Virus record (IMG/VR): IMGVR_UViG_3300048809_000030
Span: 1 to 35,039 of that record
Direction: 5' to 3' (one strand)
DNA length: 35,039 nt
Source of the DNA: a virus
Below, piece after piece: positions 2,672-34,695 of this stretch (position 1 is its first letter; each line of letters starts with the position of its first letter). The translations under genes were made by a program, and so were the position numbers. The notes beneath the pieces are model-generated. The model saw only the letters and a program-made list of their open reading frames with translations, made no database searches and had not been told where the DNA came from.

Positions 2672-3577
2672 TTAGTCATAATCATCATGACTAGAATCTT
2701 TATTTGATCTAGTATAACTTGGATTCATCGAATTTTGAATGAGCAAATCATCTCTCAATTTTTGATTTTTCTTTTCCATATTCAAAATACGAAGAAAACT
2801 GTTATATGAAATTTGAGTGAGGAACGCAAATGGATTTTGGCTACGACTTTCATCAAATTGTAAAGCAACCTGACAAAGTTGTAATACTGCCTGTCCTTGC
2901 ATTTCTTCTCTGTATGAATAATTTCGCCAATTTCCCTTGAGAGCATACTTTTCAGTTAGCTTCATCAACATCCTAGCCAAATTATCGGTTAATCCACCAT
3001 GAGTTTTGCAAAATTCACCACCATCAAATGAGCCACGCCAATGACTTTTACCAACTATGTACGATTGTCCATTCTTTTTGATACGATAATGAAAAAATGG
3101 CGGAAAATTTAATCGAATATGATCTGCTTTGACAGTGGTTAGAGATTCCTGAACTAAAATTTCAACCATTTCTGCTTCTTCAACATCATCAGATTCATCT
3201 TCTGACTTCACTTCATCAAAGAATTTGCTTAAAACATCAGTTTGTAAGATGGGTTGACGAATATTTTTTGGTACCTTTGGTGGTAACAATGGAATATGTT
3301 GCCAAGTCATAACACGAAAAACTAAATCAGTATTCGGAATATCATCGGCTTCAATTCTGCTTCCTTCTTCCTTTAGCAGTCGTGCGGCCCTATTAATTTT
3401 GGCTTGTTCAATAGATTCTGGGTTAATATCATCAACGGACAATAAAATTGTATCATATTGATGATCCTTTGTTGAATTTAAAAAAGAACAGTATGAATTT
3501 TTTGATATATGAATTTCTTTCAATAAATCGCGATTGTTCAAATAATTTTGTTTAATGACGCCTCCGTTACTACGCAT
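2672..3577 (-). CDS. 55: gp55-like sigma factor for late transcription
   Basis: The 301-residue protein ends in a T4 gp55-like core at about residues 195-280. This contains WRNYSYREEMQGQAVLQL, then NPFAFLTQISYNSFLRI, then a Lys-rich helix (EKKNQKLRDD). This is the sigma region 2-like part that contacts core RNA polymerase and reads the late -10 box. T4 gp55 is only about 185 residues long. The extra N-terminus holds NYLNNRDLLKEIHISKNSYC, a second conserved-looking block (VFRVMTWQHIPL, residues 87-98), and an acidic linker (about 121-138). The C-terminus ends in SSHDDYD and shows no obvious hydrophobic sliding-clamp-binding tail as T4 gp55 has. The gene starts the minus operon, nine bases after the predicted transcription start. 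Its Shine-Dalgarno sequence is weak (UAAG). The late boxes in this window are its expected targets. Confidence 0.87.
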   Translation of the reverse strand: MRSNGGVIKQNYLNNRDLLKEIHISKNSYCSFLNSTKDHQYDTILLSVDDINPESIEQAKINRAARLLKEEGSRIEADDIPNTDLVFRVMTWQHIPLLPPKVPKNIRQPILQTDVLSKFFDEVKSEDESDDVEEAEMVEILVQESLTTVKADHIRLNFPPFFHYRIKKNGQSYIVGKSHWRGSFDGGEFCKTHGGLTDNLARMLMKLTEKYALKGNWRNYSYREEMQGQAVLQLCQVALQFDESRSQNPFAFLTQISYNSFLRILNMEKKNQKLRDDLLIQNSMNPSYTRSNKDSSHDDYD

Positions 3578-8382: not shown

Positions 8383-8385
8383 CAC

Positions 8386-8392
8386 ATAAATA
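8386..8392 (+). promoter_or_regulatory. Late promoter box directly before gp6 (predicted leaderless mRNA)
   Basis: The sequence is ATAAATACTACTATG: a late box, five bases, then the start codon. With the T4 spacing the first transcribed base would be the A of the gp6 AUG (8398). No Shine-Dalgarno sequence is visible before this ATG. Confidence 0.65.
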
Positions 8393-8397
8393 CTACT

Positions 8398-11300
8398 ATG
8401 AGCACAACTGGAACACCATTACAAACGACGGGTAATTTCGGAATCCAAAATTGGCAAGCCGTATATGAAGCTTTCAATAATCCAGATTTAGCGTCGTATG
8501 ATTTTGAAACACTTCGTCAATCAATGCTGAATTACCTTCAGCAATACAATCCAGAAAATTTCAATGATTATACAAATAGCTCTGAATACGTAGCACTAGT
8601 TGATTTGATTGCGTTTATGGGTCAAGCCATGAGCTATAGATTTGATCTGAATGCTCGTGAAAGTTTTCTACCCACGGCAACAACTCGTAACGCCATCACT
8701 GCTCTAGCAAATTTAGTCAACTATACTCCATCTCGTAACCTATGTGCCAATGGTTATCTAAAACTTTTCACTATTAGTATCAATGATGATGTGTATGACA
8801 GTCTTGGTAACAATTTGAACAGCATTTCCATCAATTGGAATGATTCCACAAATCGTAATTGGTTGGATCAATGGAACACCATTATCAATGCTGTGTTGAC
8901 AAGTTCACAAACGGTTGGCAGTCCGGGTAATTCTCAACTCATCAATGGAATTGATTATTCCGAGTATGGTTTGGCATGTGCCGCTGGCCAAGCTCCTCCA
9001 TATCCTTTCACAGCCGCCATTGATAATACAACAATGAATTTTGAATCGGTGAATCCAACTAGTGTTGGTGAACCGTATATCTATGAAGTAGACCCTTACG
9101 ATTCTCAATCCACTTTCAATTTATTATTTGAAAATGATGGAATGGGATTCAATAGTCCAAACACTGGATATTTCTTTTACTTCAAACAAGGCACTCTTAC
9201 CTCACAAGCATTTTCATTGATCAACGCCCTTCCAAATACGATTGCCTATATGTCCACCACAGGCATAAACAATACAGATGTTTGGCTATATCAAATCAAT
9301 AGTAATGGAACGTTGACAGAATGGACTCAAGTTGAAGCCATTTATGGCGAGAATACAACCTTCAACAATTTGCCAGTATCCCAACAAACTATTTTTTCAG
9401 TCACAAGCGGTGTAAATGATTCAATTGCCTTAGTCTTTGGTGATGGTGTTTTTGGAGCAATCCCCGTTGGTAATTTTATTTGCTACACTCGCAGTTCAAA
9501 CGGATTGAACTATAGAATCAACCCAAATGAAATGAGCAATATTTCTTTGACTATTCCATACAACAGCAAAGAAAATAGAACTCAACTTTTCACTGCTCGT
9601 GCAACGCTACAATACACAATTGGAAACAGTGCAGCAACCGAATCTCTTGCCAATATCAAGTTGAAAGCCCCGCAAAGCTATTACTCACAGAATAGAATGG
9701 TAAACGGCCAAGATTACAATAGCTTTCCATTTACACAATATAGCAACATTCTTCAAATCAAGTCTATCAATCGCACAAGCAGTGGGGTAAGTCGATATCT
9801 TGATGTGGTTGATCCAACTGGCAAATATAGCAGCACAAATATCTTCTGTGATGATGGTTACATCTATTTGGATTCCAGTATCATCACCAATAATTATACC
9901 TATTCAAATTTGAACGCATTAGCCAATATTATTGAAACGCAAATTACAAATATTATTGCTGATAGTAGCACTTTAAGTTTCATCTACAACAATTATCCAC
10001 AATTTCAGCAATCAGCATTGACAACTCAATGGAATATGGTACTGACTGACAATACAAGTTCCAGTGGATGGTTTGGAAATATCGCAACTAGTAATAGTTT
10101 ACTGACTATCAACGATCCAAGTTTTGGAAGCGTTCTAACAAGTTTTGCGTCTATTCTTGTTCCGGGAACTCTGCTTACCTTTACAGCACCAAGTGGTTAT
10201 GTATTTGATCAGAACAACAATCTAGTTGTTGGCAATACTAGTTTGCCTGGATTGAATCAAAAAACAAATATCTATACAACCATCTCCGGCATTCCACTCA
10301 ACGCTGGCATTGGAAATAGCATTGGTATGAATGGCGTGAATGTTGATGGAAGCGGTGCGATCCAACTAAATCAAAAAGTTCCAACTGGAGCAATACTCTA
10401 TTCCATCTACCCATTCTACTCACCAGTATTGCCATCCACCATTCTTCAAAGTCTAATCAATTATGTTGCCGCTGGCAAAGCTGTTGCGCTCAACTATAAT
10501 CCAAATCTAATCGGAACAGGGATTTCAAATTGCTGGACTCTTATAACCAGCCCAACTTTTCCATTGAATTTCAATCCTGCCACTTATGGTAGTGCATTCG
10601 TTCCGCCAAGTAGCCCATCGGCCACTTCAACAAATAGTTGGCTATTAGCATTTGTTCCAACACTCACAAACGGTTTCTCTGTGTATCAGCAGAGCAATTC
10701 CTATTATTTTGGCAGTGAAAAGCAAACATCATTCTATTACGATTCAAATGCAAAGGTCTATGATCCTGTCAATGCCACAACTTTGAGCGATCAGATTACT
10801 ATTTTGAAAACTAATTCAGCACCCACAACAAATACTAATCTAGGATTGACCAATGATGTTCCTGTCGATATTTTTTCCACTGTAAATGAAATCAATGGAA
10901 CCATTGATAGCAGTCGTGTTGGAATTGAATATGCTGATCTAGGTTCCAGCGGAGTTCCATCCAATCCATCATTCTTTACGACAGTAGTTGGGATCAATCC
11001 TGCTGCAAATAACAATTATCTTTTCTTTGTGACTGATAACTCACAGAGTACAACCACACTAATTTCAGCCGAATCAAATGGCGTTGTATTAGTTGCTACG
11101 CTGAGTGTAATCAATAACAATCTATATAACTATGCAAATGGAACCATCATATTTTGCATTGCCAACCAATCATTCTATCAAATTAGTAGAATCGGGAACC
11201 TTGCATCCAAAACAACATTGAATAATCCCGGTGATACGCTTACCTATACTTATTTTGTTGGTCGTCAAGACTTGAAATTCCAATATCAACACAATGCGGC

Positions 11301-12906: not shown

Positions 12907-13176
12907 ATGAAACAATTATTGGATTTTTTATCAGAATGGTGGGAAGAAATTAAGAACAAAACTTGGTTCGTAACCTTTCGTGGTTTGTTCATTGGTGCGC
13001 TTTTTTCTCAAATACAACAAACATTTTCAAATGGTCATATGGTGTTCACAATAACTGGAGTTCAACATATGTTCGCTGTTGCTTTATTCACAGCCGCAGT
13101 CTCATTGTATCATCTATATTTGCCAACACCAGCTACTACTTCGGCAATTGCATCAGCAAAAGCCAATGCTAAATAA
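12907..13176 (+). CDS. Small membrane protein, holin-like candidate
   Basis: The 89-residue protein has a charged N-terminus (LSEWWEEIKNKT), one moderately hydrophobic segment (FRGLFIGALFSQIQ, about 24-37) and one strong one (MFAVALFTAAVSLYHLYL, about 56-73), then a polar Ala-rich tail. Two membrane segments and the size fit a class II holin, and holins often sit beside tail-fibre genes. No endolysin is seen in the window, so the call is tentative. It has one of the strongest ribosome-binding sites here (AAAGGAGGG, nine bases after the previous stop). An alternative +2 frame ORF in the same place is a shadow. Confidence 0.7.
   Translation: MKQLLDFLSEWWEEIKNKTWFVTFRGLFIGALFSQIQQTFSNGHMVFTITGVQHMFAVALFTAAVSLYHLYLPTPATTSAIASAKANAK
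13169..13175 (+). promoter_or_regulatory. Late promoter-like box (CTAAATA) before the SGNH fibre
   Basis: The box overlaps the end of the small membrane protein gene. A start six bases downstream (13181) falls on the first base of GAGGG and gives a 10-nt leader before the ATG at 13191. The geometry is the same as at 11906 and 34031. Confidence 0.4.
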
Positions 13177-13190
13177 ACAAGAGGGATACT

Positions 13191-16133
13191 ATGAAATTTA
13201 ACAAAGCATTGGCTGTTTTGGTTCTATTGATATCACCATTACTTGGATTTTCTCAACGCTCCACAAAAATTGATTTAGGAAGTCAGGTTCAAGGAACTTT
13301 ACCTAAATTGAATGGTGGAACTGGTGTGGGAACCACAAACAATGCGCTTATTAACGCTAGTATCGGCTCACAGCCTGTTACTCTTCTTGGAGTGGGCGCT
13401 CCATCTTTGCCTTGTTCAAGCACAGTAAATCTATATACCTATTATGTAACTCAAGATTTTCATTTATATCAATGCTCCAATAATAATGGTGGTGCAACTT
13501 ATCTATGGAATAACATTAGTATTGGTGGCGGTGGTGGGACTACAACAAATCCTCTCTCTTTCAATACCAGCGGAGGCGCAGCACCAGGCGCTTCATTTAA
13601 TGGTTCAGCAGCAGTAGCCATTGATTATCATACTGTTGGCGCTCCATCAGCTACAGGAACAGGTGCATCAGGAACTTGGCCAATCAGTATTTCCGGCGCT
13701 TCTGCGTCTGTTGGATCAACTGGTGGTAATGGAACATATTGGGGAGTATTGGGTGGTGTACAAGGATATTACACACCAACTCCTGCTAGTGGAGCCGCTG
13801 CAATATATCCACCAAATACTGGATATGTTATTTATGGCGATTCAAGAGTTGCTGTTACTGGATCGAGTTCAACAGGATTAATGACCTGTGGTTATAATGG
13901 TTTAGCGATCACAGCCAGCACGATCACAGGAAGCGTTGGAACTTTCACTGCTACCCAAGCGCAATCGGCAGGTGATTTTATTACACTCTATGGTTTTACT
14001 GGACTTGGAAGTGTATTGAATGGCGAGAAAGTTGTGATTCTTTCAACTGGTCTTTCAGGAATACAATTTGAAGCCAATGTAACTGGAATCTCTTCTGGAA
14101 CAACTGGGGCTGGACTATATGGTTGTACCCAACTTCCATCAACACTTTTAGCAAATAGTCCTTTACTTCCTAGTTCTAGCACAGTAAATCTTCAAGCTGT
14201 AGGAAACGCAGCGGTTTCTGATTTGATTTCAAACTATGCTGCCCTAGTTCATCCCCTAAGTCCTGCAATAACTGGAAAGCCCGGTATTCTTATCCTTCAA
14301 GGTGGAGTTGGTGATATTATCGAGGGCGGTGGTACTACTGGAACTGTTGAAACCAATTTACGAACTCTTTGGGCAATGGCACATACTGATGGTTTTACAG
14401 TTATGGCAGAAAGTTTAATTCCACACACAAGCACAATTTATAATGGAAATACAGACTCCGATATTCTGACTGTCAATACTTGGATGAGAGGTCAAGGTCC
14501 GACAGCGACTCCAGCGGGAGCAGGAGAATATTGGGATTCTTTTGCTGATGTAGCGCAAGATTTAGCCAATGATTCTGACACAAATTTATTTCTATCAAAT
14601 CAACATTTAACTGATCAAGGTAATGGTTATGTTTTTAACAATATATCATCAAACTTATTAGCTCAAGGAACAGCGGTTCAGAGTACATCTTTTTGTTATT
14701 ACACTCAAGGATGTCCTAATTTGAATGTTGCTAATATCTTTGCTCAAAGTCTTGCATCATTTGGAACCATATATGCTCAATATGGCGGCACTGGTGGCCC
14801 ACAAGTTGGAGTATCTGTAACTCAATATCCATGGATAGGTGGTCAGTACCAACCATTCACTTACGCAGCAAGTGGTAGCCTCACCCCATATCTTGATACA
14901 TTTTACACTTTCAATAACTCTCAAATTCAAGGCATTCATACAGGCAATTATCAATCATGTTGGAACAGTTATGTAGGTACAACGATTTACGGACTAATGT
15001 TTGAAACCGCACCAACATTTAGTTTTTCTCTTGATCAAACAGTAAACAATCAGATCAACTTAGGCAATTGCGGAACACTCTCAGACTTTTCCGGCGGAAT
15101 GAAATTGACTTTTATAGTTGGACCCGCCATTGCACCTAGTGGTTCGTGTACGGGGCATACAGGACAATATGAAATGACTAATGATGGGGCAATAACTTAT
15201 TGTCCGGCTTCTACCCATACTTGGACTTCATATGGTGGTAGTTTCACCGCTGCTGGCGATCTTTCAGGAAGTAGTTCAAGTCAAGAAGTTGTAGGATTAG
15301 AATCCGTTCCATTCTGTACTTCGTATTCACCAATAAACGGCGATTTTGTAGAATATACAACAGGTGGAACTCCAAGCCCTTGTTATGGACCTGCAACTGC
15401 GCCAAGTGGTTCTTTTAGTGCTGGTGGTGATCTTTCAGGAAGTAGTTCAAGTCAACAGGTTGTCGGAATCAATAGCGTTCCGCTTTGTACTGGGTTCACT
15501 CCCACAAATGGACAAAACTTACAATATACAACAGGACTGTCTCCAAACCCATGTTATACAGCCGTCACACCAAGTGGTGGCGGTGGTGCTTGGACTAATA
15601 TCAGTTCAGCAGTAACTTGGACTGGTTGTACATACGCAAGTGGTGTTTGTACAGTAACGGGTCCAGTTGGTAACCTCGACATCAGCGCGATCCCCGGAAC
15701 TTACAGCAACATCAAGATTGTGGCTGTAGCCAATACCTCTTCGAGTTATGGTCCTGGTCAAACCTTCAATATGATAGTAAACGCAGACAGCGGCAACAAC
15801 TACGACTCCTCTGTATGGGAGACAAACCCCGGTGGTACGGGTGCCGTCGCTCAGCAAGCCACAGGAGCAATAAATCTTACCGGTGTTGCTGGCTCATCGG
15901 TAGCAAACTCCTCAACTGCGCTGGAACTATTCTTCCCACAGTACGCTAACTCAACCTCCGGTTTCTGGAAGATTTGCCAAGGAACAGCAAGCGAAGAATA
16001 CTCAGGTGGAGTCAGCCTAGCAACCATCGCAGGTGCATGGCACAATACGGTACCCATAACTGAACTAACATTTCAAATGGCCGGAAACTACGAAACCAAT
16101 GGTTCAACATGGCAGATATTCGGACAAAACTAA
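13191..16133 (+). CDS. Large exported fibre-like protein with SGNH hydrolase domain
   Basis: The 980-residue protein begins with a Sec signal (KFNKALAVLVLLISPLLGFS, cut before QR) and a fibre-type LPKLNGGTGVGTTNNALINA (38-57). Residues 205-490 resemble an SGNH/GDSL esterase: block I YGDSR with Ser218 as nucleophile, block II AVGNA (Gly338), a degenerate block III LQGGVGDI (370-376, usual Asn replaced by Gly), and block V NQHLTDQGN with His472. A beta module (about 235-310) is inserted between blocks I and II. Such domains often remove acetyl groups from polysaccharides, so a role in loosening capsule or exopolysaccharide is likely. Two repeats of 57 residues follow (about 685-800), each with DLSGSSSSQ and two Cys, then a C-terminal beta domain (800-980) that looks like a fibre tip. 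The DNA of the tip is clearly richer in G+C than its surroundings, which suggests recombination. GAGGG before the ATG supports the start. Confidence 0.78.
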   Translation: MKFNKALAVLVLLISPLLGFSQRSTKIDLGSQVQGTLPKLNGGTGVGTTNNALINASIGSQPVTLLGVGAPSLPCSSTVNLYTYYVTQDFHLYQCSNNNGGATYLWNNISIGGGGGTTTNPLSFNTSGGAAPGASFNGSAAVAIDYHTVGAPSATGTGASGTWPISISGASASVGSTGGNGTYWGVLGGVQGYYTPTPASGAAAIYPPNTGYVIYGDSRVAVTGSSSTGLMTCGYNGLAITASTITGSVGTFTATQAQSAGDFITLYGFTGLGSVLNGEKVVILSTGLSGIQFEANVTGISSGTTGAGLYGCTQLPSTLLANSPLLPSSSTVNLQAVGNAAVSDLISNYAALVHPLSPAITGKPGILILQGGVGDIIEGGGTTGTVETNLRTLWAMAHTDGFTVMAESLIPHTSTIYNGNTDSDILTVNTWMRGQGPTATPAGAGEYWDSFADVAQDLANDSDTNLFLSNQHLTDQGNGYVFNNISSNLLAQGTAVQSTSFCYYTQGCPNLNVANIFAQSLASFGTIYAQYGGTGGPQVGVSVTQYPWIGGQYQPFTYAASGSLTPYLDTFYTFNNSQIQGIHTGNYQSCWNSYVGTTIYGLMFETAPTFSFSLDQTVNNQINLGNCGTLSDFSGGMKLTFIVGPAIAPSGSCTGHTGQYEMTNDGAITYCPASTHTWTSYGGSFTAAGDLSGSSSSQEVVGLESVPFCTSYSPINGDFVEYTTGGTPSPCYGPATAPSGSFSAGGDLSGSSSSQQVVGINSVPLCTGFTPTNGQNLQYTTGLSPNPCYTAVTPSGGGGAWTNISSAVTWTGCTYASGVCTVTGPVGNLDISAIPGTYSNIKIVAVANTSSSYGPGQTFNMIVNADSGNNYDSSVWETNPGGTGAVAQQATGAINLTGVAGSSVANSSTALELFFPQYANSTSGFWKICQGTASEEYSGGVSLATIAGAWHNTVPITELTFQMAGNYETNGSTWQIFGQN
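15258..15455 (+). repeat. Direct repeat inside the SGNH fibre gene
   Basis: A 27-bp sequence beginning GATCTTTCAGGAAG occurs identically at 15258-15284 and 15429-15455, a period of 171 bp. It is part of a diverged tandem protein repeat of 57 residues. Such repeats are common in fibre shafts and allow length change by recombination. Confidence 0.85.
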
Positions 16134-16150
16134 AGAAGGAGTAAATACCA

Positions 16151-16193
16151 CATTTCTGGCGGATAAATACAACAGAGGAATCCGCCAGAAATG
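16151..16193 (+). promoter_or_regulatory. RBS-sequestering hairpin enclosing a late promoter
   Basis: CATTTCTGGCGGA (16151-16163) is the exact reverse complement of TCCGCCAGAAATG (16181-16193), with 17 bases between. In RNA that reads through from upstream, this 13-bp stem contains the AUG start codon and holds AGAGGAA in the loop region. RNA started at the enclosed late promoter would lack the left arm and be free for ribosomes. T4 gene e, soc and 49 are known to use this arrangement. Confidence 0.8.
16163..16169 (+). promoter_or_regulatory. Late promoter box before the 2644-residue gene
   Basis: GGATAAATAC sits in the loop-proximal part of a perfect inverted repeat. The predicted start (16175) gives the 16-nt leader starting GAGGAATCC, so the mRNA keeps the ribosome-binding site but lacks the left arm of the repeat. 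A second, poorer match (GTAAATA, 16141-16147) lies upstream. Confidence 0.65.
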
Positions 16194-19100
16194 TCAACTG
16201 CCAACTTTTTACCACCGTATCTTCAAACTGTAGCAAACAAGCGGTTTTTACAATCAACGCTTGATTTGCTGACTGCCAAACCAGCATTAACCAGATTCAA
16301 TGGTTATATTGGTCGTATGGTATATGATGGAGAGGTTCTTACCGGAAATTATCTTCTGGAATCCACACCAATAAGACAAAATTATCAATTAGAAGCGGCT
16401 TTTGTCACAACAGATGCAAACCAAAATGTCACAGCAGTTTCTAATTTCCTTGATCTTCTCAATGCCAGTGCAAACAAAGATGCAGTAACTTCTTCTTGGA
16501 ATAGACTACTCACCAGCAATATGTACAGTTGGCAGGGATTCTTTGATTTTGACAAAATCATCAATTATCAAAATTATTGCTGGCTTTCTACTATAAGTAC
16601 CACAGAAATTCCAACTGAGTGGTATTGGAATAACAGCATCCTCATTCAACCAACCAATTCAGTTGAAACTGATATATTAGGACAAGTTCAATATACCGAT
16701 CCAACTGGTATTGCCCTGTTGGATGGAATGATCATTTCCTTCCCAAACAATGAAACCTCTATTTACAATTATGGTACAAGCTATATTGTGGAAGGGGTTG
16801 GATTGGAAATCACATTGGTTCCAGTTTCAAATATCATCACACCAAACTTTGTATCTGATCAAAATAACCCACCAGATTATCTAACCATTGCAAGAAATGC
16901 AATTGACTTGAATCTATGGGCCAGAACCAATCTATGGGTTCATAAAAACACTGTCAATAGCATTGTGGCCATACTTGCCGCACAGAATAATGATTTTGTG
17001 GTTCCAACCGTATTTGATTTGGCAAAACGTCCAATTATTGAATTTACTCCGTTGGTTCTATTCAATTCTGGAAAAATTGGTTTGTCAGCCGCAACATATT
17101 TTGACAATTCCACCACCGATGCCTTTTATGTCATTCAAGGACAAATTAATTTTGCATGTGATGGATATCAATTGAATGATGGGGATTCTGTTATCTTCAA
17201 TGCAGATCACAATCCATTCATTCGACAAAATGTGTATGATGTTAACTTTGTTGATACCACTAGACTTGTTCAAATTCCTAGATTGTATCCTGTTCAAGCA
17301 TTATCGGCATTCAACATTACACTGAATGCCTTACAAACAATTGACGGATACATTACGCAAGTCGGGGATCGTATTCTTGTTCTTGGACAAACAGATGCCT
17401 CTCAAAATGGAATCTATGTTGCCTCTAAATTAGCTTGGACTAAAGCAAGTGATTTTACTGGCAATGAACAAATTGGCGTGCTGGTATTATACGGTATTTT
17501 CTATAAGCAAACCTATTATATTTTCACTCCTGCCAACATTGTAAACAACCCAGTTATTGGCTCATTGATACCAACATCAAATCCATTGGTGTATACTCTT
17601 CCAATAACTCCAGACCCAAATACATTACTTGTATGGGATAACTTCCCAATGATACCAACAGTTGGATACACGCTATCTGGCTCAACAGTTACATTTGTCA
17701 ATGCTCCTTTAGTTACCGACACACTATCTTTTCAAGCGTGGCCTCTTGGAAACGCCCCGGTTACCAGTGCAATTACTGGCGTTCCCGCTGGTGTAAAAAA
17801 TAGTGTAAATTGTGTATTCACAATTCCAACACCACCAGATGATAGCACATTGCTTGTTTGGAACAATTTTCCACTAGTGGAAGGTGTTGGCTATACTCTT
17901 TCTGGAACAACAATTACTTATGCACAAGCACCAGTTCCATCAGATGAATTGTTCTATCAATGCTGGTCTAAATGGATACAAAGCCCAGTTATTCCGGTTG
18001 CTCAACTTGTGTTACGAGACACTGCACAATATGATAATTGTGTTTTGATTACCGGAGGTCAAGCATACTCAAATCAAATGGTTGTATGGAATAATACAAA
18101 TTGGGTAGTTGCAGCACAAAACAAAACCGAAATCAATCAGGCTCCTCTTTTTGATGTGTTTGATATGAATGGCGTTAGTTTTGGTAATTTTGCAATATAT
18201 TCTGATTCGAGTTTTATTGGCAGCGAACTATTTTCCTATGAAATAGGAAGTGGTGCTGATGATTCAGTGCTTGGGTTCCCACTTACATATGGACCGGTTG
18301 GAAATCTCAACGATGTCATTTTCCAACATAACTATGTAACCGATACCTTTTCTTATGGAGGTATTTCTACACCAGTTCAAATTCTCAATGGCCGCGCACA
18401 TAGTATTAACCCATTATCATATGTGGAATCAATTTTTGATTCGTGGCAATACACATTAAGCAATCTTGAATTGTATCAAAACTATCTATCTGTAGGCACT
18501 GCAAATATTAGCTTTACAGGAAATCTCTTAATCAAATCCACCGGAAATTCACAAGCAACACAAGTTTTTGTGAATGGCACTCAATTAGCACCGAGTGCAT
18601 TTACTGTTACACAGACTAACAACAAAATAACGATTGTCATTGTGAACGGGGTAGCTGTTACTGATACTGTTTTCATTAAAATTTTGAGTAGCACTCCAAT
18701 ACCAGGTGCCTATTATGATGTTCCTCCTGCATTTGATCATAATCCACTTGGTGAGATGCTTGACACTGTTAATATGGGTCAACTTCGCTTACATGCGTCA
18801 ACAGCACAAAATAATACAAATGATATCACCGGAATCGTAAATCTATTTTTGAATGAATATCAAGGTGTCCCAGGAAGTATGCTATTTCAAGAAGCAATTA
18901 GTATGCTTCCAACAGTATTATTGTGTAATAACAATTTTAACATTGATCAAGCATTGAGAACTGCATCTGATGATTACACTTTATTCAAACAGCGTTTTGT
19001 CAATATGACATCACAACTTGTCAATATCGGTTTGATGCCAGCCAAACAAGCAGTTGATCTAATACTTCAAAAGGTTGCGTCAACTTACATTTCTGAACAG

Positions 19101-22100
19101 CCATGGGCCACAAGTGATATGTGCTATTGGGGAGGAATCAACAATACCATCACGGTTAGCAATACTCATTTGATGACTTTCAATTTACAGCAAACATACA
19201 ATTGGACTCAGCCAAATCTTCAAGAATTACAAATCTATTTGAACAATGTTCAATTGATTCTCGGCTTGGATTACAGCGTATCTGGAAATATATTGACAAT
19301 GATCACTGCATTGAGTCTTGGAGATATTATTTCCATTTATGAAATTGCTAATACCACTGGTAACTATATTCCAGCAACTCCAACAAAACTTGGATTGGCA
19401 CAATCGTATGTCCCACAGATTTATACTGACTATACTTACCAAACTCCTCGACCAGTCATTCAAGGACACGATGGTAGTATCACAACTTGCTATGGTGATT
19501 ATCGTGATAACCTGATTTTAGATTATGAACTACGAGTCTTCAACAATCTCAAAGTAAACAACCAATTTCTATCTGACATCATTCAATCGCATGTTCCGAA
19601 TGGTGGAAGGTGGCGCAGTGAGCAAGCAGGTGCAAATGCTTCCATTGCGCCATACACTCCATCCGAATTATTGACTATTCAACAGCGTATGTTCTATGAA
19701 TGGGCATCAGAATACAATATCAACTACCTGAATAGTTTTTATGACATTGATGATTTGTTCACTTGGAATTGGAGTAGCAGTCTTGACAAGTTGAGCGATC
19801 AACAAAAACTTCTTGGATATTGGAGAGGCATCTATCGTTGGTTCTATGACACTGAATATGTAAACAACAAACCATGGGAAGCACTCGGTATAACAATCAA
19901 ACCAACTTGGTGGGAATCTACTTACGGACCAGAACCATGGACCGGTGCAAACTCCAATCTATGGGATGATATCGCAATCGGAATTATTCGTGATCCTGCT
20001 GGTATTCGTTATAGCACTTTTGGTTCAAAAACATTTGGAACCAACACGGTAACATCAGTAATTCCAGTAGATAGTTCTGGAAACTTGCTTGATCCAAACG
20101 AAAGCGTAGTAGGTGTATTCAACGATAGTGCGGCTTCCTATGATTTTGTATTTGGTGACGATGGCCCTTCAGAAGAAGCTTGGAGACGAAGCAGTGTCTA
20201 TCCATTTGCAAAACTTCGTGCTCAGATTCTTCAAAATCCTTTGTTTATGTGTGGAGTATTGTGGGATACAAATAACTATTTGCCAACTGTGGGCTTTGAT
20301 CAATTCAGATATCAAAATAACTATCTTGGAAGCATCAACCAAGTTACTTTGAATAGTGTTGATGATAATGGAACCGCTCTTGTCAACAGTATTTTGAATT
20401 ATAGCATTGAATATCTTCGTCGTCAAGGGCAATCTCCTGCACAATTACGCGAAGCTATCAGCAACACGACAGTTCAACTTATGTATCCATTGGGCGGCTA
20501 TTCCGATCCAAATGATCTTACTGTTTATGGCTCTCCTAACAATCCAGCCGATGTTGGAGCCGCTGAACTAATTCCAGTTCACGATTATACTCTATTTTTG
20601 AATCAAAGCACACCAACAGGAACTATCAACTACAGCGGTTTGACAATCAATACAGCATCAAATGGTGGATATCAAGTTTCTGGATACAATCGTGTCAATC
20701 CATTCTTTACAATTTATCCAGCAAATATTTATGGACCTGCTGTTCAAATTGGCGTTGCTCCAAATTTCTTCAAATATCCAGCGTCGTTTGCATTAGTACC
20801 AGAAATTGTTCCATACAATACCATTTTTCCTGATGTGCAAAGCGCTGTAAATTTCATTGCTGGTTATGAAAATTTTCTAACTGCCAATGGCATTACCTTT
20901 GATAACAATGTTTCACAAACACAAGTTGATTGGCAAGGCGCAGCAATTCAATTTATCAAATGGAGTCTTACCGATTGGAATGTGGCAATTCCGTTCTCGT
21001 TGGTTCTAAATCCAAGTGCATCCATCATCAATTATAATGCAACATCAGGCACCTTGTATGATCTTACCGATCCACTTGGTAGTTTAGTGTTGGATGTAAA
21101 TAGCACCGTAGTTGGTCCACAATTCTTAGATGTATATCGTGACAATAATGCGGTCACCATAACGCATCAAGGCGGCGGAATTTTTGCCTGTGTTGCCGCT
21201 GATATTGTTAGTTACGAGCATCGTGTTATCTTTGATAACATAACAGCATTTGATGACACAATCTATGATCCAATTTCTGGTGTTCGTCAAATTCGTGTTA
21301 CATTTTCTGGACAAAAGAGTGCCAATTGGGATGGAACTCTGGATAGTCCAGGATTCTTGATTTGCACCGATTCTGTTCAAGCATGGATACCAAATAAAGA
21401 CTATCTATATGGAAGTTTAGTTCAATGGAAGAATAACAACTATGTGGCAACACAAGATGTAATTGGAGCCACAACTTTTCAATATGGGCAATTCCAATTG
21501 ATATCAACCACTTTCACAAATAGCATTCTACCAAATTTGTCTTTGAAATCTATTGACTATGTAAATTCTTACAACATCAACTACCGACCATTTCTAACTG
21601 ATTTGGTCAATCTTCGTAATAACACAATTGGTTATATTGAACGAGATTGGTTGACTATTTTGGATATTGATCTTGGCGGTCAAACTGATTTTTACAAGGG
21701 ATGGATCAAAGAAAAGGGTTCTCTTAATTCATTGAATAGTTATGGTCGCGGTTCAACTCCTCAACTCAATACAGTTGTGGAAGTCAATGAAGAATATGCT
21801 ATGAAAGTTGGTGTTTATGGCAGTGATCTACGAACTGGATATGGTGATGTTAGTTTACCACCGATCATCAATACACAAAATCCTTTGATTATTTCATTTG
21901 TATCATCTCCAAATTCTGCTGATTCTAACAGTATTCAAGTTACACCGCACAATTTGTATGAAAAATCTGCCAATTGGAACAATGACTTGATTCAATACTA
22001 TGGCAACTTGGTTTTGGAAACCAGCAGTTTTACAAGCGGAGGTCCAGTAATTCCACAGGCATTCATTGCAGCAGCGCAAAATACTATTCCAAGTTTCATC

Positions 22101-24125
22101 AAAACAGATGAACCATATTTGTTCTTCCCAACATTAGATTTGATGACTGCTGCTCCTCAAGATAGTGTATTGAAGATTGCCGAAAATGGTGGAAGTTTTT
22201 GGATTGAAAACAATCCTCTGGCTCCCGGACCAAACCAATGGGATGTTATCATTTTTAGTGCGGCCAGTACAGCAATTGCATCCATTACTCAACTCAATGC
22301 CAATACTATCAGTTTCATTTTATCCAACAACATTGGTGTAACTGCAAATAGTATCATAGTCATTGACTATACCGATGTTGGTGCTAATATATCCATCTCT
22401 GGTTCATTCGTAGTGAATGATTATTTCATCGCTCCGTTCATAACAGCTAACACCATTGGATATTCAAATCTATCTATCATCACATCACCAAATCAATTTG
22501 GAAATGTGTTTGTAAATTATCCAAACCCTGTTCCAACCAGTGATATCTATGTTTCTCGTAGTTTACGATCTGATAGTATTGCCGAGGGGGATATCATATC
22601 TGGAGATAGCACCCAATATGTTGTCAATGATGTCACCGGAGAAGCGGCATATGATCTAACCGTTCCATATCAAACAGAAATTACATATACAGGTGTTAGT
22701 GGTGGAATCGCTATAAATTCGTTGGCATATGATAGTCCAAATCAACTGCTATGGAGCGGAAAACCAAATTATGCACCTTCTGGAGTTGTTGAATTACGAA
22801 TCGTTGCTCCGGATATCATATCTATTGGAAATGTGTTGCCGACCATTGATACTGTCGTTTACATTTTACAGCCACAAAATCCAAACTCTTTCAATTTGGG
22901 AAGAATTACTGTTGCTGCCAATAATTTCGCGGCGGCAACGGCAGATACCAGTGGCATTCCATCACAAATCTATATATGTCGCAATAATTCTCGAAGCGCT
23001 CCATCAGTTGCGCAAATACTTAACGGAAACACTTCATCTTCATATCAAATCAATGGATTAGCAGTAAGCGCAGATGGAAATTGGTTATATGCTGTTGAAG
23101 AATTTTCTAGTGGAGTCTCGCAAATTGCAGTATATGCTTTACAAACCAATGCAAATGTTGGGCAATCATGGTTCCCAAATTATTCAATAACTGGGCATGT
23201 AGCCAATACATCCATTACAGTCAATCACGTAATTCCAAATGAATATGCCATCACAGTGCTTATCACCGATAATATTGATTACTCTAAGCGAGTACTGATA
23301 CCAAGTTATGAATACACTGTTGCTGGCAATGTAATCAATATCAATGGCGTACATGCAGGAACAACTTATGTTGGTGATCCAAATCATACCTTTACGGTAA
23401 CTGGTTTGCCATCATTTTATCAATATCAAGGAACATTGAATCCTATAGCTTTCGGTCTTTCACAATTTGGGGCAGGAAGTCAATTTGGCGCATCTATCGC
23501 GTGCGATTCCACAGGGACTTTACTTGCTGTAGGGGCACCTGCGGTTGGCTCTGGAAATGTAGTAATTTTCTCTCGCGTCACAGAAAATCAATATGCAAAT
23601 GCAAGTGGTTATGCAACACCAATCAATACATTTGAAACCATTACTAGTGTATTGATAAATGGTCTTCCAGTACCACAATCTGCGCACGTCGCAGTTAGTG
23701 CAGGTACACTAATTGAATTCCAAGGCTATTGTTTTAATGTAGATCAGGTTATTTCGGCACCTAATACAACAGACAGCGGATTTGGCACTAGCGTTGCCAT
23801 TGAAAATAATCAATTAGTAGTGGGTAGCACAAATACCACCATCGGCAATCAGTTCAACAAAGGAACAGGATACTTTTATGCCTTGGATACAGCCATTACC
23901 AGCACCAAAATTATTCCTTTGATAGATTTGAGTCTCTCTACCATTCCATTTATGATTAACGGATGGGTTTGTACCCCAGCAACCTCCACAGTAATTGGTC
24001 TGATAAATGCCATTAACGCAATAAGTGGATATACTGGCATAAATGCCTCAATTCAAAATTCAAACCTAGTTCTCAACATTGATTCAGTCTTACAATCGTC
24101 CGGAATCGGACTTTTAGGCGCATAA
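16191..24125 (+). CDS. Giant modular baseplate/tail structural protein (2644 aa)
   Basis: The N-terminus (FLPPYLQTVANKRFLQSTLD, then FNGYIGR, then NYQLEAAF, then WQGFFDFDKIINYQNYCW at 114-131) matches a pattern I recall from very large virion proteins of T4-like cyanophages. They lie in the gp7-gp10 part of the tail cluster, so a wedge or peripheral baseplate role is inferred. Two tandem beta modules (about 470-515 and 545-590) share LLVWxNFPxxxxVGYTLSGxT. The middle has a long aromatic-rich section including WWESTYGPEPWTG. Near the C-terminus come propeller-like blades: LAVSADGNWLYAVEE (about 2300), then FG-GAP-type FGASIACDSTGTLLAVGAP (about 2430) and SGFGTSVAIENNQLVVGS (about 2530). The series of blades seems unfinished at the stop and to continue in the next gene. 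Translation is predicted to depend on the hairpin and late promoter before it. Confidence 0.7.
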   Translation: MSTANFLPPYLQTVANKRFLQSTLDLLTAKPALTRFNGYIGRMVYDGEVLTGNYLLESTPIRQNYQLEAAFVTTDANQNVTAVSNFLDLLNASANKDAVTSSWNRLLTSNMYSWQGFFDFDKIINYQNYCWLSTISTTEIPTEWYWNNSILIQPTNSVETDILGQVQYTDPTGIALLDGMIISFPNNETSIYNYGTSYIVEGVGLEITLVPVSNIITPNFVSDQNNPPDYLTIARNAIDLNLWARTNLWVHKNTVNSIVAILAAQNNDFVVPTVFDLAKRPIIEFTPLVLFNSGKIGLSAATYFDNSTTDAFYVIQGQINFACDGYQLNDGDSVIFNADHNPFIRQNVYDVNFVDTTRLVQIPRLYPVQALSAFNITLNALQTIDGYITQVGDRILVLGQTDASQNGIYVASKLAWTKASDFTGNEQIGVLVLYGIFYKQTYYIFTPANIVNNPVIGSLIPTSNPLVYTLPITPDPNTLLVWDNFPMIPTVGYTLSGSTVTFVNAPLVTDTLSFQAWPLGNAPVTSAITGVPAGVKNSVNCVFTIPTPPDDSTLLVWNNFPLVEGVGYTLSGTTITYAQAPVPSDELFYQCWSKWIQSPVIPVAQLVLRDTAQYDNCVLITGGQAYSNQMVVWNNTNWVVAAQNKTEINQAPLFDVFDMNGVSFGNFAIYSDSSFIGSELFSYEIGSGADDSVLGFPLTYGPVGNLNDVIFQHNYVTDTFSYGGISTPVQILNGRAHSINPLSYVESIFDSWQYTLSNLELYQNYLSVGTANISFTGNLLIKSTGNSQATQVFVNGTQLAPSAFTVTQTNNKITIVIVNGVAVTDTVFIKILSSTPIPGAYYDVPPAFDHNPLGEMLDTVNMGQLRLHASTAQNNTNDITGIVNLFLNEYQGVPGSMLFQEAISMLPTVLLCNNNFNIDQALRTASDDYTLFKQRFVNMTSQLVNIGLMPAKQAVDLILQKVASTYISEQPWATSDMCYWGGINNTITVSNTHLMTFNLQQTYNWTQPNLQELQIYLNNVQLILGLDYSVSGNILTMITALSLGDIISIYEIANTTGNYIPATPTKLGLAQSYVPQIYTDYTYQTPRPVIQGHDGSITTCYGDYRDNLILDYELRVFNNLKVNNQFLSDIIQSHVPNGGRWRSEQAGANASIAPYTPSELLTIQQRMFYEWASEYNINYLNSFYDIDDLFTWNWSSSLDKLSDQQKLLGYWRGIYRWFYDTEYVNNKPWEALGITIKPTWWESTYGPEPWTGANSNLWDDIAIGIIRDPAGIRYSTFGSKTFGTNTVTSVIPVDSSGNLLDPNESVVGVFNDSAASYDFVFGDDGPSEEAWRRSSVYPFAKLRAQILQNPLFMCGVLWDTNNYLPTVGFDQFRYQNNYLGSINQVTLNSVDDNGTALVNSILNYSIEYLRRQGQSPAQLREAISNTTVQLMYPLGGYSDPNDLTVYGSPNNPADVGAAELIPVHDYTLFLNQSTPTGTINYSGLTINTASNGGYQVSGYNRVNPFFTIYPANIYGPAVQIGVAPNFFKYPASFALVPEIVPYNTIFPDVQSAVNFIAGYENFLTANGITFDNNVSQTQVDWQGAAIQFIKWSLTDWNVAIPFSLVLNPSASIINYNATSGTLYDLTDPLGSLVLDVNSTVVGPQFLDVYRDNNAVTITHQGGGIFACVAADIVSYEHRVIFDNITAFDDTIYDPISGVRQIRVTFSGQKSANWDGTLDSPGFLICTDSVQAWIPNKDYLYGSLVQWKNNNYVATQDVIGATTFQYGQFQLISTTFTNSILPNLSLKSIDYVNSYNINYRPFLTDLVNLRNNTIGYIERDWLTILDIDLGGQTDFYKGWIKEKGSLNSLNSYGRGSTPQLNTVVEVNEEYAMKVGVYGSDLRTGYGDVSLPPIINTQNPLIISFVSSPNSADSNSIQVTPHNLYEKSANWNNDLIQYYGNLVLETSSFTSGGPVIPQAFIAAAQNTIPSFIKTDEPYLFFPTLDLMTAAPQDSVLKIAENGGSFWIENNPLAPGPNQWDVIIFSAASTAIASITQLNANTISFILSNNIGVTANSIIVIDYTDVGANISISGSFVVNDYFIAPFITANTIGYSNLSIITSPNQFGNVFVNYPNPVPTSDIYVSRSLRSDSIAEGDIISGDSTQYVVNDVTGEAAYDLTVPYQTEITYTGVSGGIAINSLAYDSPNQLLWSGKPNYAPSGVVELRIVAPDIISIGNVLPTIDTVVYILQPQNPNSFNLGRITVAANNFAAATADTSGIPSQIYICRNNSRSAPSVAQILNGNTSSSYQINGLAVSADGNWLYAVEEFSSGVSQIAVYALQTNANVGQSWFPNYSITGHVANTSITVNHVIPNEYAITVLITDNIDYSKRVLIPSYEYTVAGNVININGVHAGTTYVGDPNHTFTVTGLPSFYQYQGTLNPIAFGLSQFGAGSQFGASIACDSTGTLLAVGAPAVGSGNVVIFSRVTENQYANASGYATPINTFETITSVLINGLPVPQSAHVAVSAGTLIEFQGYCFNVDQVISAPNTTDSGFGTSVAIENNQLVVGSTNTTIGNQFNKGTGYFYALDTAITSTKIIPLIDLSLSTIPFMINGWVCTPATSTVIGLINAINAISGYTGINASIQNSNLVLNIDSVLQSSGIGLLGA

Positions 24126-24128
24126 ATA
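24122..24128 (+). promoter_or_regulatory. Late promoter box in the junction of the giant genes (predicted leaderless mRNA)
   Basis: The sequence ATAAATATTAGTATG gives a late box that overlaps the stop of the 2644-residue gene, then five bases, then the next ATG. The spacing is exactly that found before gp6, so the A of AUG would be the first RNA base. No Shine-Dalgarno sequence is visible in the 8-bp gap. Confidence 0.65.
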
Positions 24129-24133
24129 TTAGT

Positions 24134-27100
24134 ATGATTTCCTCATCTCTCACTAGCCAATTCGTACTCATAGATTCTGTGTCTCCCACGGATTCTGCGG
24201 CACTGCAATTTGGTCAGAAAGTTAATTGGTTAAGCAATGATTTATTTTCTATTGTTAGCAACATTGACTCTCCTTTTGTGAGTGATGATATTAAATTATC
24301 AGATGCAACATATTTTGATGGAGATGGAACCCAATTTGGAGATATTTCTACATCATTCAGTCAAAAAATTGATGTATATCAGATTCTCAAAACCAACAGA
24401 GAATGGATTAATTCACCATCAGATATTCTAAAGACGGTGCCTGTTACAACAATACCAATTACCGGAATTTATAATACCAATGTTGTTTATGCCGGTGCCA
24501 TTGATAATCTATTTCTTGCAGATGCAGGAAATCCAGATAGCGCTATCAAAATTTTTAATAACCCATCATTGACACATGGTTGGACAGTATTTACTGCACA
24601 AGAACAGCGACTTGATTCAGGAAGTATTAGTCAAGCTTGGATTTACGATTCTGTCACGCAAATCAAATTGGCTGATTTAGAAGTCGTTGACATTTATGCT
24701 GGAATCTTACCTGGCACTATTAGTAGTGAACTTGATTTCGTTTGTGATATTGACCCAGCTTGTTACAACATTCTACCATGGATTCCCGGAACTGTTTATG
24801 CAATTGGTAACCGAGTTCTATATGGTGGACAAATTTATCAAGCACTGTATTCTGGAAAAAGCGGAAGTATGTTTAGTTCTTCCCTATGGCTTTTAGTAAC
24901 TTCTCAACCATCTGTCAATACTGAAGGGATCACCAAATGGGGAGCAAATCAAATTGGAAGAACTTGGTTTAATACCACAAATCTAAAAGCAGTAAATGCC
25001 CAACTAGGAACTTTGTCCGAACGCGCACAGAATTGGAACACTTGGTTTCCAAACTCAGCTATTCAAATTTTTGAATGGGTGAATAGCTCTGTACCTCCTG
25101 TACAATACACAAGCAATGCCGCCAATGGATTTGTTATTGATCCGACAATTTCATACACCTATGATTTGGTTACTAATCAATATGGTTTTTGGGTTTTTGC
25201 TAAAGATTCGGCAAGTCCATTACATAATCAAACAACAGCAGAATTGATTGCTGATGTTAGCAATATTCCAGATTCCGGAATACCAATGATAACCGCCATT
25301 GATACTAATGCCGTGGCAGTTTGGAATATCAATCAATTTGTATCCAACAACACAGTAATTTTACACATTGATTATGTTACTGAATCCGCCAACAATCAAT
25401 TGCACAACGAATTTGCACTAATCAGTAATGATGGCACCAAGTCGTGGTATACAACATCAATTTATCCAAAATTAATTGACAGTCTTAGTGGTGTATCCAC
25501 AACAAATCAACTTGTGCCCGATTTTACACTTCCAACCAATCAACAAACTGGAATTCTCAACAATCCAGTTCAATCGTTGTTTGTAAACCGATCCACTGCG
25601 TTAGATATTTACTTCTCAATAGTCAATCAGCAATTAGCAAACATTGCAATTGCAACAACAGCAGTAATCTCGGCATTGAGTGCATCCGATCCGTTACCAA
25701 CAAGCGGTTTCAACGAGCAAATTTCTGATCGCTCTGTGTTAGATGAACTTGATTCTTCTTTGTATCCAGAAAATTACCGCATTTTGCTTACACAAGATGA
25801 TACTCTAACCCCACCAGCATGGAGCATTGTGGCTATTGTTGATGGAGTATGGCAACTTGCGCAATATCAAACATACAATTTGGCAAATAATTGGGAATAT
25901 ACTGATTGGTACAGTGTAAATTATACCGATGCTTCTCCAACTTATGTTTTGAACAATCCAGGAGAATTATCTTTTATCACTTATGTTGCAGGAGACATTG
26001 TTCAAATCCTCAATAACGGAAATGGCAATCAAGTAATATTTTTGGCGGTCATAAATGATATTGACCCTGCCGTAACTGAACTTGACCCGATCTATATTCA
26101 AAACGGAACGATTCAATTCTTGCCCAATCTATATGATTTCTTATCAAGTGACATTGGGTTTGACAATCAACCATTTGACAGTCAACCATTTGATAATGAT
26201 CCATATTTGGCAATCCGATTCATCACACAAATTTTGAATGACACTATTTTTGTGGGGAGTGATATACTAACCGCATCAGCCGATGATGGTTTCTATTCCA
26301 TTCTCAATTACATCTTGTTTGAAAATCAGAATCTTGATTGGTTATTCAAAACCAGTTTTGTCACAGTTGATTACAACAATCGTAATCTTGATATTCAAGG
26401 AACTTTCTCTCCGGACAATCAATCATCCATTGAAGATTTTGTGAGCGAAACATTGCCGTTTCATATTCGCGTTCGTGAATTTCGTGACACCTTTACTAGT
26501 AATGATTATGGAAATATTGGAGCAAATGACTTTGATATTCCATCTCAATATGACTCAAATTATGCTAACATAGTATATGAATTTTCTCCAAATTCAAAGT
26601 TGAATACACAACTCCCTTTGAGTCCGTTCCAAAAATATGTTGGTGTTTCATCTTATGGAAATTCTTGCTATATCAAGAGCGATGGTATTCCACAATATCC
26701 AACAATGGAATCCACCCCACAAAATTGGCAGTTTGGATTTGTCAAAATTCCAATAACCAGAAATATCAAATACGACACAGTTCCAGATACATCCGGCCCA
26801 ATCGCTGTAGCAATTGATGGCGTTCCATTTTTTAGTCCAAACAGCGGTGAAACAGAAACGTTATATCAGTATGGAAATATTAGTCAACCATTAGCAAATA
26901 TTGCCAATCAATCCACATACACCATAAACAGTGTTTGGGAAGCACAAGCAAATGATCTTGATCCAGGTGCTGGATTTACCAACATCAACGGAGCGTATGA
27001 ATATCTAACTTATCCGTACATCTTGGCAAATTCTGCCCCCAACAATTCACCAATTACTGGTGTTCAAGATACTCCTCGTGGCGTACTTGACGGATTCAAC

Positions 27101-34663: not shown

Positions 34664-34695
34664 AAGTTACCGAGATTAATTAATCTCGGTAACTT
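34664..34695. terminator. Perfect 32-bp palindrome between convergent genes, intrinsic terminator
   Basis: AAGTTACCGAGATTA (34664-34678), AT, then TAATCTCGGTAACTT (34681-34695) is a perfect palindrome. On the minus strand it is followed by TTTTTGTTTG, which is a good intrinsic terminator. On the plus strand no T-tract follows, so termination from that side would be weaker. The stop codon of the minus-strand endonuclease gene lies inside the stem. Confidence 0.8.

Follow-up and report, generated by a model that had tools for sequence, protein, structure and literature searches.

A predicted late-promoter hairpin switch at the start codon of a giant virion gene in a jumbo-phage lineage

In a 35,039-nucleotide stretch of viral DNA (IMG/VR record IMGVR_UViG_3300048809_000030, positions 1 to 35,039; hereafter the window), the start codon of a gene for a 2644-aa virion structural protein (16191-24125, plus strand; phrog_10938, E 1.5e-163) lies in a perfect inverted repeat that overlaps a late promoter box. 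We hold it probable, at about 0.72, that this element switches the start site at the RNA level in the manner of T4 genes e, 49 and I-TevI, a mechanism that would restrict output to the gene's own late promoter. RNA polymerase would read through from the upstream gene into the giant gene, and in the resulting mRNA a 15-bp hairpin would bury the AUG, so that ribosomes could not start. Polymerase carrying the phage gp55-type sigma factor would start at about 16175, inside the hairpin, and the late RNA, lacking the left arm and beginning at the Shine-Dalgarno sequence (SD), would leave the start site open. Only RNA that its own late promoter initiates would thus yield the giant protein.

As described in PMC2988022 and PMC3014915, known members of this class include T4 e, soc, 49, 26, I-TevI, I-TevII, I-TevIII and segB, and mobE of Aeromonas phage Aeh1. 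In these switches the hairpin of the read-through RNA hides the SD and/or the AUG, and a TATAAATA-type late promoter, lying within the ribosome site or a short way before it, yields an RNA without the left arm (PMC2988022, PMC3014915).

Geometry of the hairpin and its late promoter

The inverted repeat is perfect over 15 bp, with arms at 16150-16164 (ACATTTCTGGCGGAT) and 16180-16194 (ATCCGCCAGAAATGT) on the plus strand and a 15-nt loop, AAATACAACAGAGGA. The left arm would be present in read-through RNA only; the ATG (16191-16193) falls within the right arm. Within the loop lies the SD, AGAGGA (16174-16179, plus strand), at a long distance of about 12 nt from the AUG. The late promoter box GATAAATA (16162-16169, plus strand) overlaps the left arm. 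A preliminary description had reported a perfect 13-bp repeat with the ATG in its right arm, AGAGGAA in the spacer and a late box across the end of the left arm and the spacer. All of this was confirmed: 16151-16163 and 16181-16193 are fully complementary, with pairing that extends to 15 bp, AGAGGAA occupies 16174-16180 and ATAAATA occupies 16163-16169. A second TAAATA (AGTAAATA, 16140-16147) directly follows an AAGGAG between the two genes and may be a weak late box or a remnant of one. Elsewhere in the window, a perfect 32-bp palindrome (34664-34695; 16-bp arms, no loop) stands directly past a 199-aa ORF.

No second perfect 15-bp inverted repeat with a loop of 3-40 nt occurs anywhere in the window, and the base composition predicts about 0.003 such repeats per window, before any requirement that they lie on a late start. 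The hairpin region has a minimum free energy z-score of -4.1 against 200 dinucleotide shuffles, none of which reproduced its stability, and shuffling the upstream 60 nt closed the start site as tightly in 0 of 2000 trials. Of 141 starts preceded by a late box, drawn from T4 (150 kb), five related contigs and the window itself, this one has the longest perfect stem. An Rfam search of the window matched no family.

The presumed source of the read-through RNA is a 980-aa ORF (13191-16133, plus strand) with a stop codon at 16131-16133. The left arm begins 16 nt later, and judging from the size of the ribosome footprint a terminating ribosome should spare the hairpin and would probably leave it unmelted. 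This ORF had been taken for an SGNH fibre gene, which we could not corroborate, as it has no family match in Pfam or PHROGs and no SGNH domain by Pfam. A terminator scan listed nothing at the junction of the two genes and only weak matches inside the upstream ORF (5, vs 3.0 in shuffles). The hairpin itself was considered as an intrinsic terminator and rejected, since it is absent from the terminator-scan list and no U-tract follows the right arm, the next letters being CAACTGCC.

A gene for a late sigma factor of the gp55 family lies in the window (2672-3577, minus strand; phrog_12791, E 7.1e-68), and members of the same family are encoded in the relatives' contigs G002, G005, G008, G009, G017 and G018. 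T4-type gp33 and gp45 families had no match in the related contigs, where divergent versions could be missed; for gp45 the T4 record served as control and was positive for PF02916, and the window is a 35-kb fragment. From 3630 onward the plus strand carries a block of virion genes, several of them with late boxes, and a weaker late-type box, GCTAAATA (13168-13175, plus strand), belongs to the upstream ORF. The TAATT that precedes the box of the giant gene was tested as a general promoter element and is not one. A DNA search of phage records found no near relatives.

The predicted transcription start at 16175 (plus strand) follows from T4 spacing and from a class of promoters in these phages themselves. 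Among NATAAATA boxes before ORFs, counted over the window plus five related contigs, 41 have an ATG exactly 5 nt downstream, neighbouring gaps are rare (3 at 4 nt, 1 at 6 nt), and this class is missing from T4. With transcription starting 6 nt past the box, +1 in this class would be the A of the ATG, and so sharp a class gives internal support for the +1 spacing at the giant gene. Two window genes belong to it (8385-8400 and 24121-24136), for which leaderless late mRNAs are predicted to encode proteins of 1162 and 1917 aa. The contigs of L001, L002, L005, L007 and L008 likewise have ATGs 5 nt past a late box, and a distant, uncultured jumbo-phage clade has cases at 4-5 nt. A literature search that joined "leaderless" with TATAAATA found no paper in the collection covered.

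Predicted accessibility and the T4 control

Accessibility was scored as the cost of opening positions -17 to +12 in the read-through and late RNAs. For read-through RNA the predicted cost is 21-26 kcal/mol; for late RNA, with +1 set at 16173-16176, it is 2-4 kcal/mol. The predicted probability of an unpaired AUG in read-through RNA is 0.00, and the late RNA from 16175, which begins GAGGAAUCCGCCAGAAAUG, is almost structureless in the prediction. Folding of the two leaders, a check proposed at the outset, thus bears out the expected difference.

The same score was applied to 150 kb of T4, where the top ranks were 49, e, segB, I-TevII, I-TevI and 26, all described as hairpin-controlled late genes in PMC2988022 and PMC3014915. 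T4 soc was not recovered, which means that the score overlooks some real cases. T4 gene 9 (NC_000866, 87219) passes the upstream-swap test with a small change in opening cost (2.1 kcal/mol) and is a weak candidate; it is not named as hairpin-controlled in the available portions of the two papers.

The difference between read-through and late RNA at the window start, 19.2 kcal/mol, is greater than that of every T4 case scored (14.9 for gene 49 and 13.8 for e). Among 165 starts scored, only two exceed it, both belonging to 119-aa genes of the distant clade (20.3 and 19.5). The window element resembles the T4 switches in having its late box inside the hairpin, a start site hidden in read-through RNA and a gp55-type sigma factor, but it pairs the AUG rather than the SD. 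A further difference is the setting: in the reviewed T4 cases, late genes ride on early or middle polycistronic RNA, whereas the window gene lies in a virion block with late boxes of its own.

The giant gene in close and distant relatives

Eight IMG/VR loci, of which five are distinct, are close relatives of the giant gene at 59-74% identity. All five have an ATAAATA box directly before the orthologous start, and the hairpin is not conserved in this clade. The leaders of L001 (74%) and L002 (70%) have no comparable hairpin, the former being the nearest relative found. In L003, L006, L008 and their duplicates (59-60%) the ATG is 5 nt past the box, and leaderless RNA is predicted. Across the window's own clade 3 of 61 leadered starts pass the upstream-swap test, vs 3.1 expected, so there is no general excess. 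According to the preliminary description, arms that change among related phages without compensation would speak against the switch. Locally this is partly what is seen, in that the nearest relatives have no hairpin, the element being missing and not broken.

The leaderless orthologues among L003-L008 are predicted to begin their RNA at the AUG itself. Read-through RNA would there be without an SD, which would also favour RNA from the gene's own promoter. A hairpin would be unnecessary in this arrangement, which differs in that respect from the window and may be another solution for one giant gene.

Distant orthologues at about 29% identity (L101-L128, L141-L192) very often have the late box GATAAATA within a long hairpin, and 22 distinct leaders were compared. 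Two helices make up these hairpins: the outer one joins the SD arm CGGAAATTA to an upstream arm, for example TAATTTCCG, and the inner one spans the predicted +1. An arm-swap test replaced column-wise covariation because MAFFT misaligned the variable inner arms. Over the 22 leaders, inner arms paired with their own partner at a mean of -9.4 kcal/mol vs -6.5 with swapped partners (0 of 20000 permutations), and outer anti-SD/SD arms at -8.3 vs -6.7 (10 of 20000); the leaders share ancestry and the swap ignores kinship, and the permutation counts are accordingly not exact probabilities. The hairpins of this clade include 48 G-U pairs among 518, and in L172 the outer arm has been exchanged wholesale (AATCCCATAGA/TCTATGGGATT). 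In L142, L145, L146, L164 and L173 the SD is predicted to be largely unpaired, and silencing would be weaker there; in some members, e.g. L147, L148, L155 and L166, the start lacks an element of this sort.

Three contigs of the distant clade contain 82 leadered late genes, of which 17 pass the upstream-swap test (4.1 expected); for T4 the figure is 6 of 22 (1.1 expected). The passing distant-clade genes include a gp25-like baseplate gene and the 119-aa gene. Leaders of both (L235-L306 and L311-L315, respectively) have anti-SD/late box/SD hairpins, and the stem at the gp25-like gene takes in the first two bases (AU) of the start codon. Among 36 distinct ungapped gp25-like leaders, the pairing register is kept in 86% of cells vs 47-68% when slid; compensation is little above shuffles (mean 85%; 25 of 5000 reach the observed value), and these leaders count as conserved complementarity only.

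The distant hairpins share with the window a GATAAATA box inside the hairpin and a predicted +1 in or just past the left arm, and in L141-L192 it is the orthologue of the same giant gene that carries the late-box hairpin. In most distant giant-gene leaders, however, an upstream anti-SD pairs with the SD, the AUG is at or outside the base of the stem and there is a separate inner helix, whereas in the window the AUG is paired and the SD is in the loop. This difference in topology suggests independent origins on one gene, and the two kinds of hairpin probably arose separately.

Other jumbo phages have other arrangements at this junction. In RaK2 (L198), CBB (L197) and Vibrio phage 2.275 (L196) a late box comes after a terminator-like hairpin, and in PA5oct, Atu_ph07 and Phosso the giant gene abuts the upstream gene with no box.

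Alternative readings and the purpose of the switch

Long perfect stems are typical of 3'-end and processing elements, and the hairpin, which starts 16 nt past the upstream stop codon, could be an exonuclease barrier or RNase site of the upstream mRNA that covers the start codon incidentally. We regard this as unlikely, since it leaves unexplained both the late box inside the stem and the recurrence of the same box and hairpin relation, with co-varying arms, in a distant orthologue; the right arm is also without a following U-tract, and the terminator scan omits the hairpin. Slightly less probable still is that the repeat arose by accident in recent times, for example through a template switch in replication, and serves no selected function. 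Perfect arms that are missing in the nearest relatives would fit such an event, but chance is unlikely to have placed a stem over the ATG, a box at the edge of the left arm and a late RNA that escapes the pairing (0 of 2000 shuffles), and a hairpin this strong, even an accidental one, should keep read-through RNA silent.

A third possibility, that the dyad serves in the DNA as an operator over the late promoter to which a repressor or activator would bind, is very improbable. Fifteen contiguous base pairs around a 15-bp spacer are atypical for an operator. The repeat does overlap both the box and +1, and I-TevI binds and autorepresses its own late promoter, as described in PMC2988022. In the distant clade, however, the arms stay paired, G-U pairs included, while their sequences change freely, and this suits pairing in RNA better than a DNA dyad or fixed site.

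The RNA-level start-site switch put forward in the preliminary description is well supported in silico by the box within the hairpin, the gp55-family sigma factor, the 19 kcal/mol difference, the T4 controls and the distant co-varying hairpin. The purpose it had assigned, keeping the gene off early in infection, fares less well, as a late-type box also precedes the upstream gene, near 13170. Because of that box and of the late boxes in the virion block, insulation from late read-through, which would tie the giant gene's output to its own promoter, is favoured over early/late timing as the probable benefit; with neighbours that have late boxes, the need for early silencing is not evident.

More tentatively, and with somewhat less than an even chance of being right, jumbo phages with a gp55-type late sigma factor may insulate individual late genes from translation of read-through RNA by interchangeable means that swap between lineages on the giant gene. 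A 5-nt leaderless start, an SD- or AUG-hiding hairpin around the box, and a terminator plus promoter might be these means, an assignment to which we give the same guarded weight.

Descriptions of the T4 switch mainly concern late genes on early or middle RNA, and many of these genes encode homing endonucleases. Here the strongest predicted case sits on a giant gene whose neighbours are likewise virion genes with late boxes. Together, the window hairpin, its distant analogue and the leaderless starts between them suggest that jumbo phages may control late output separately for each gene, at its start codon.
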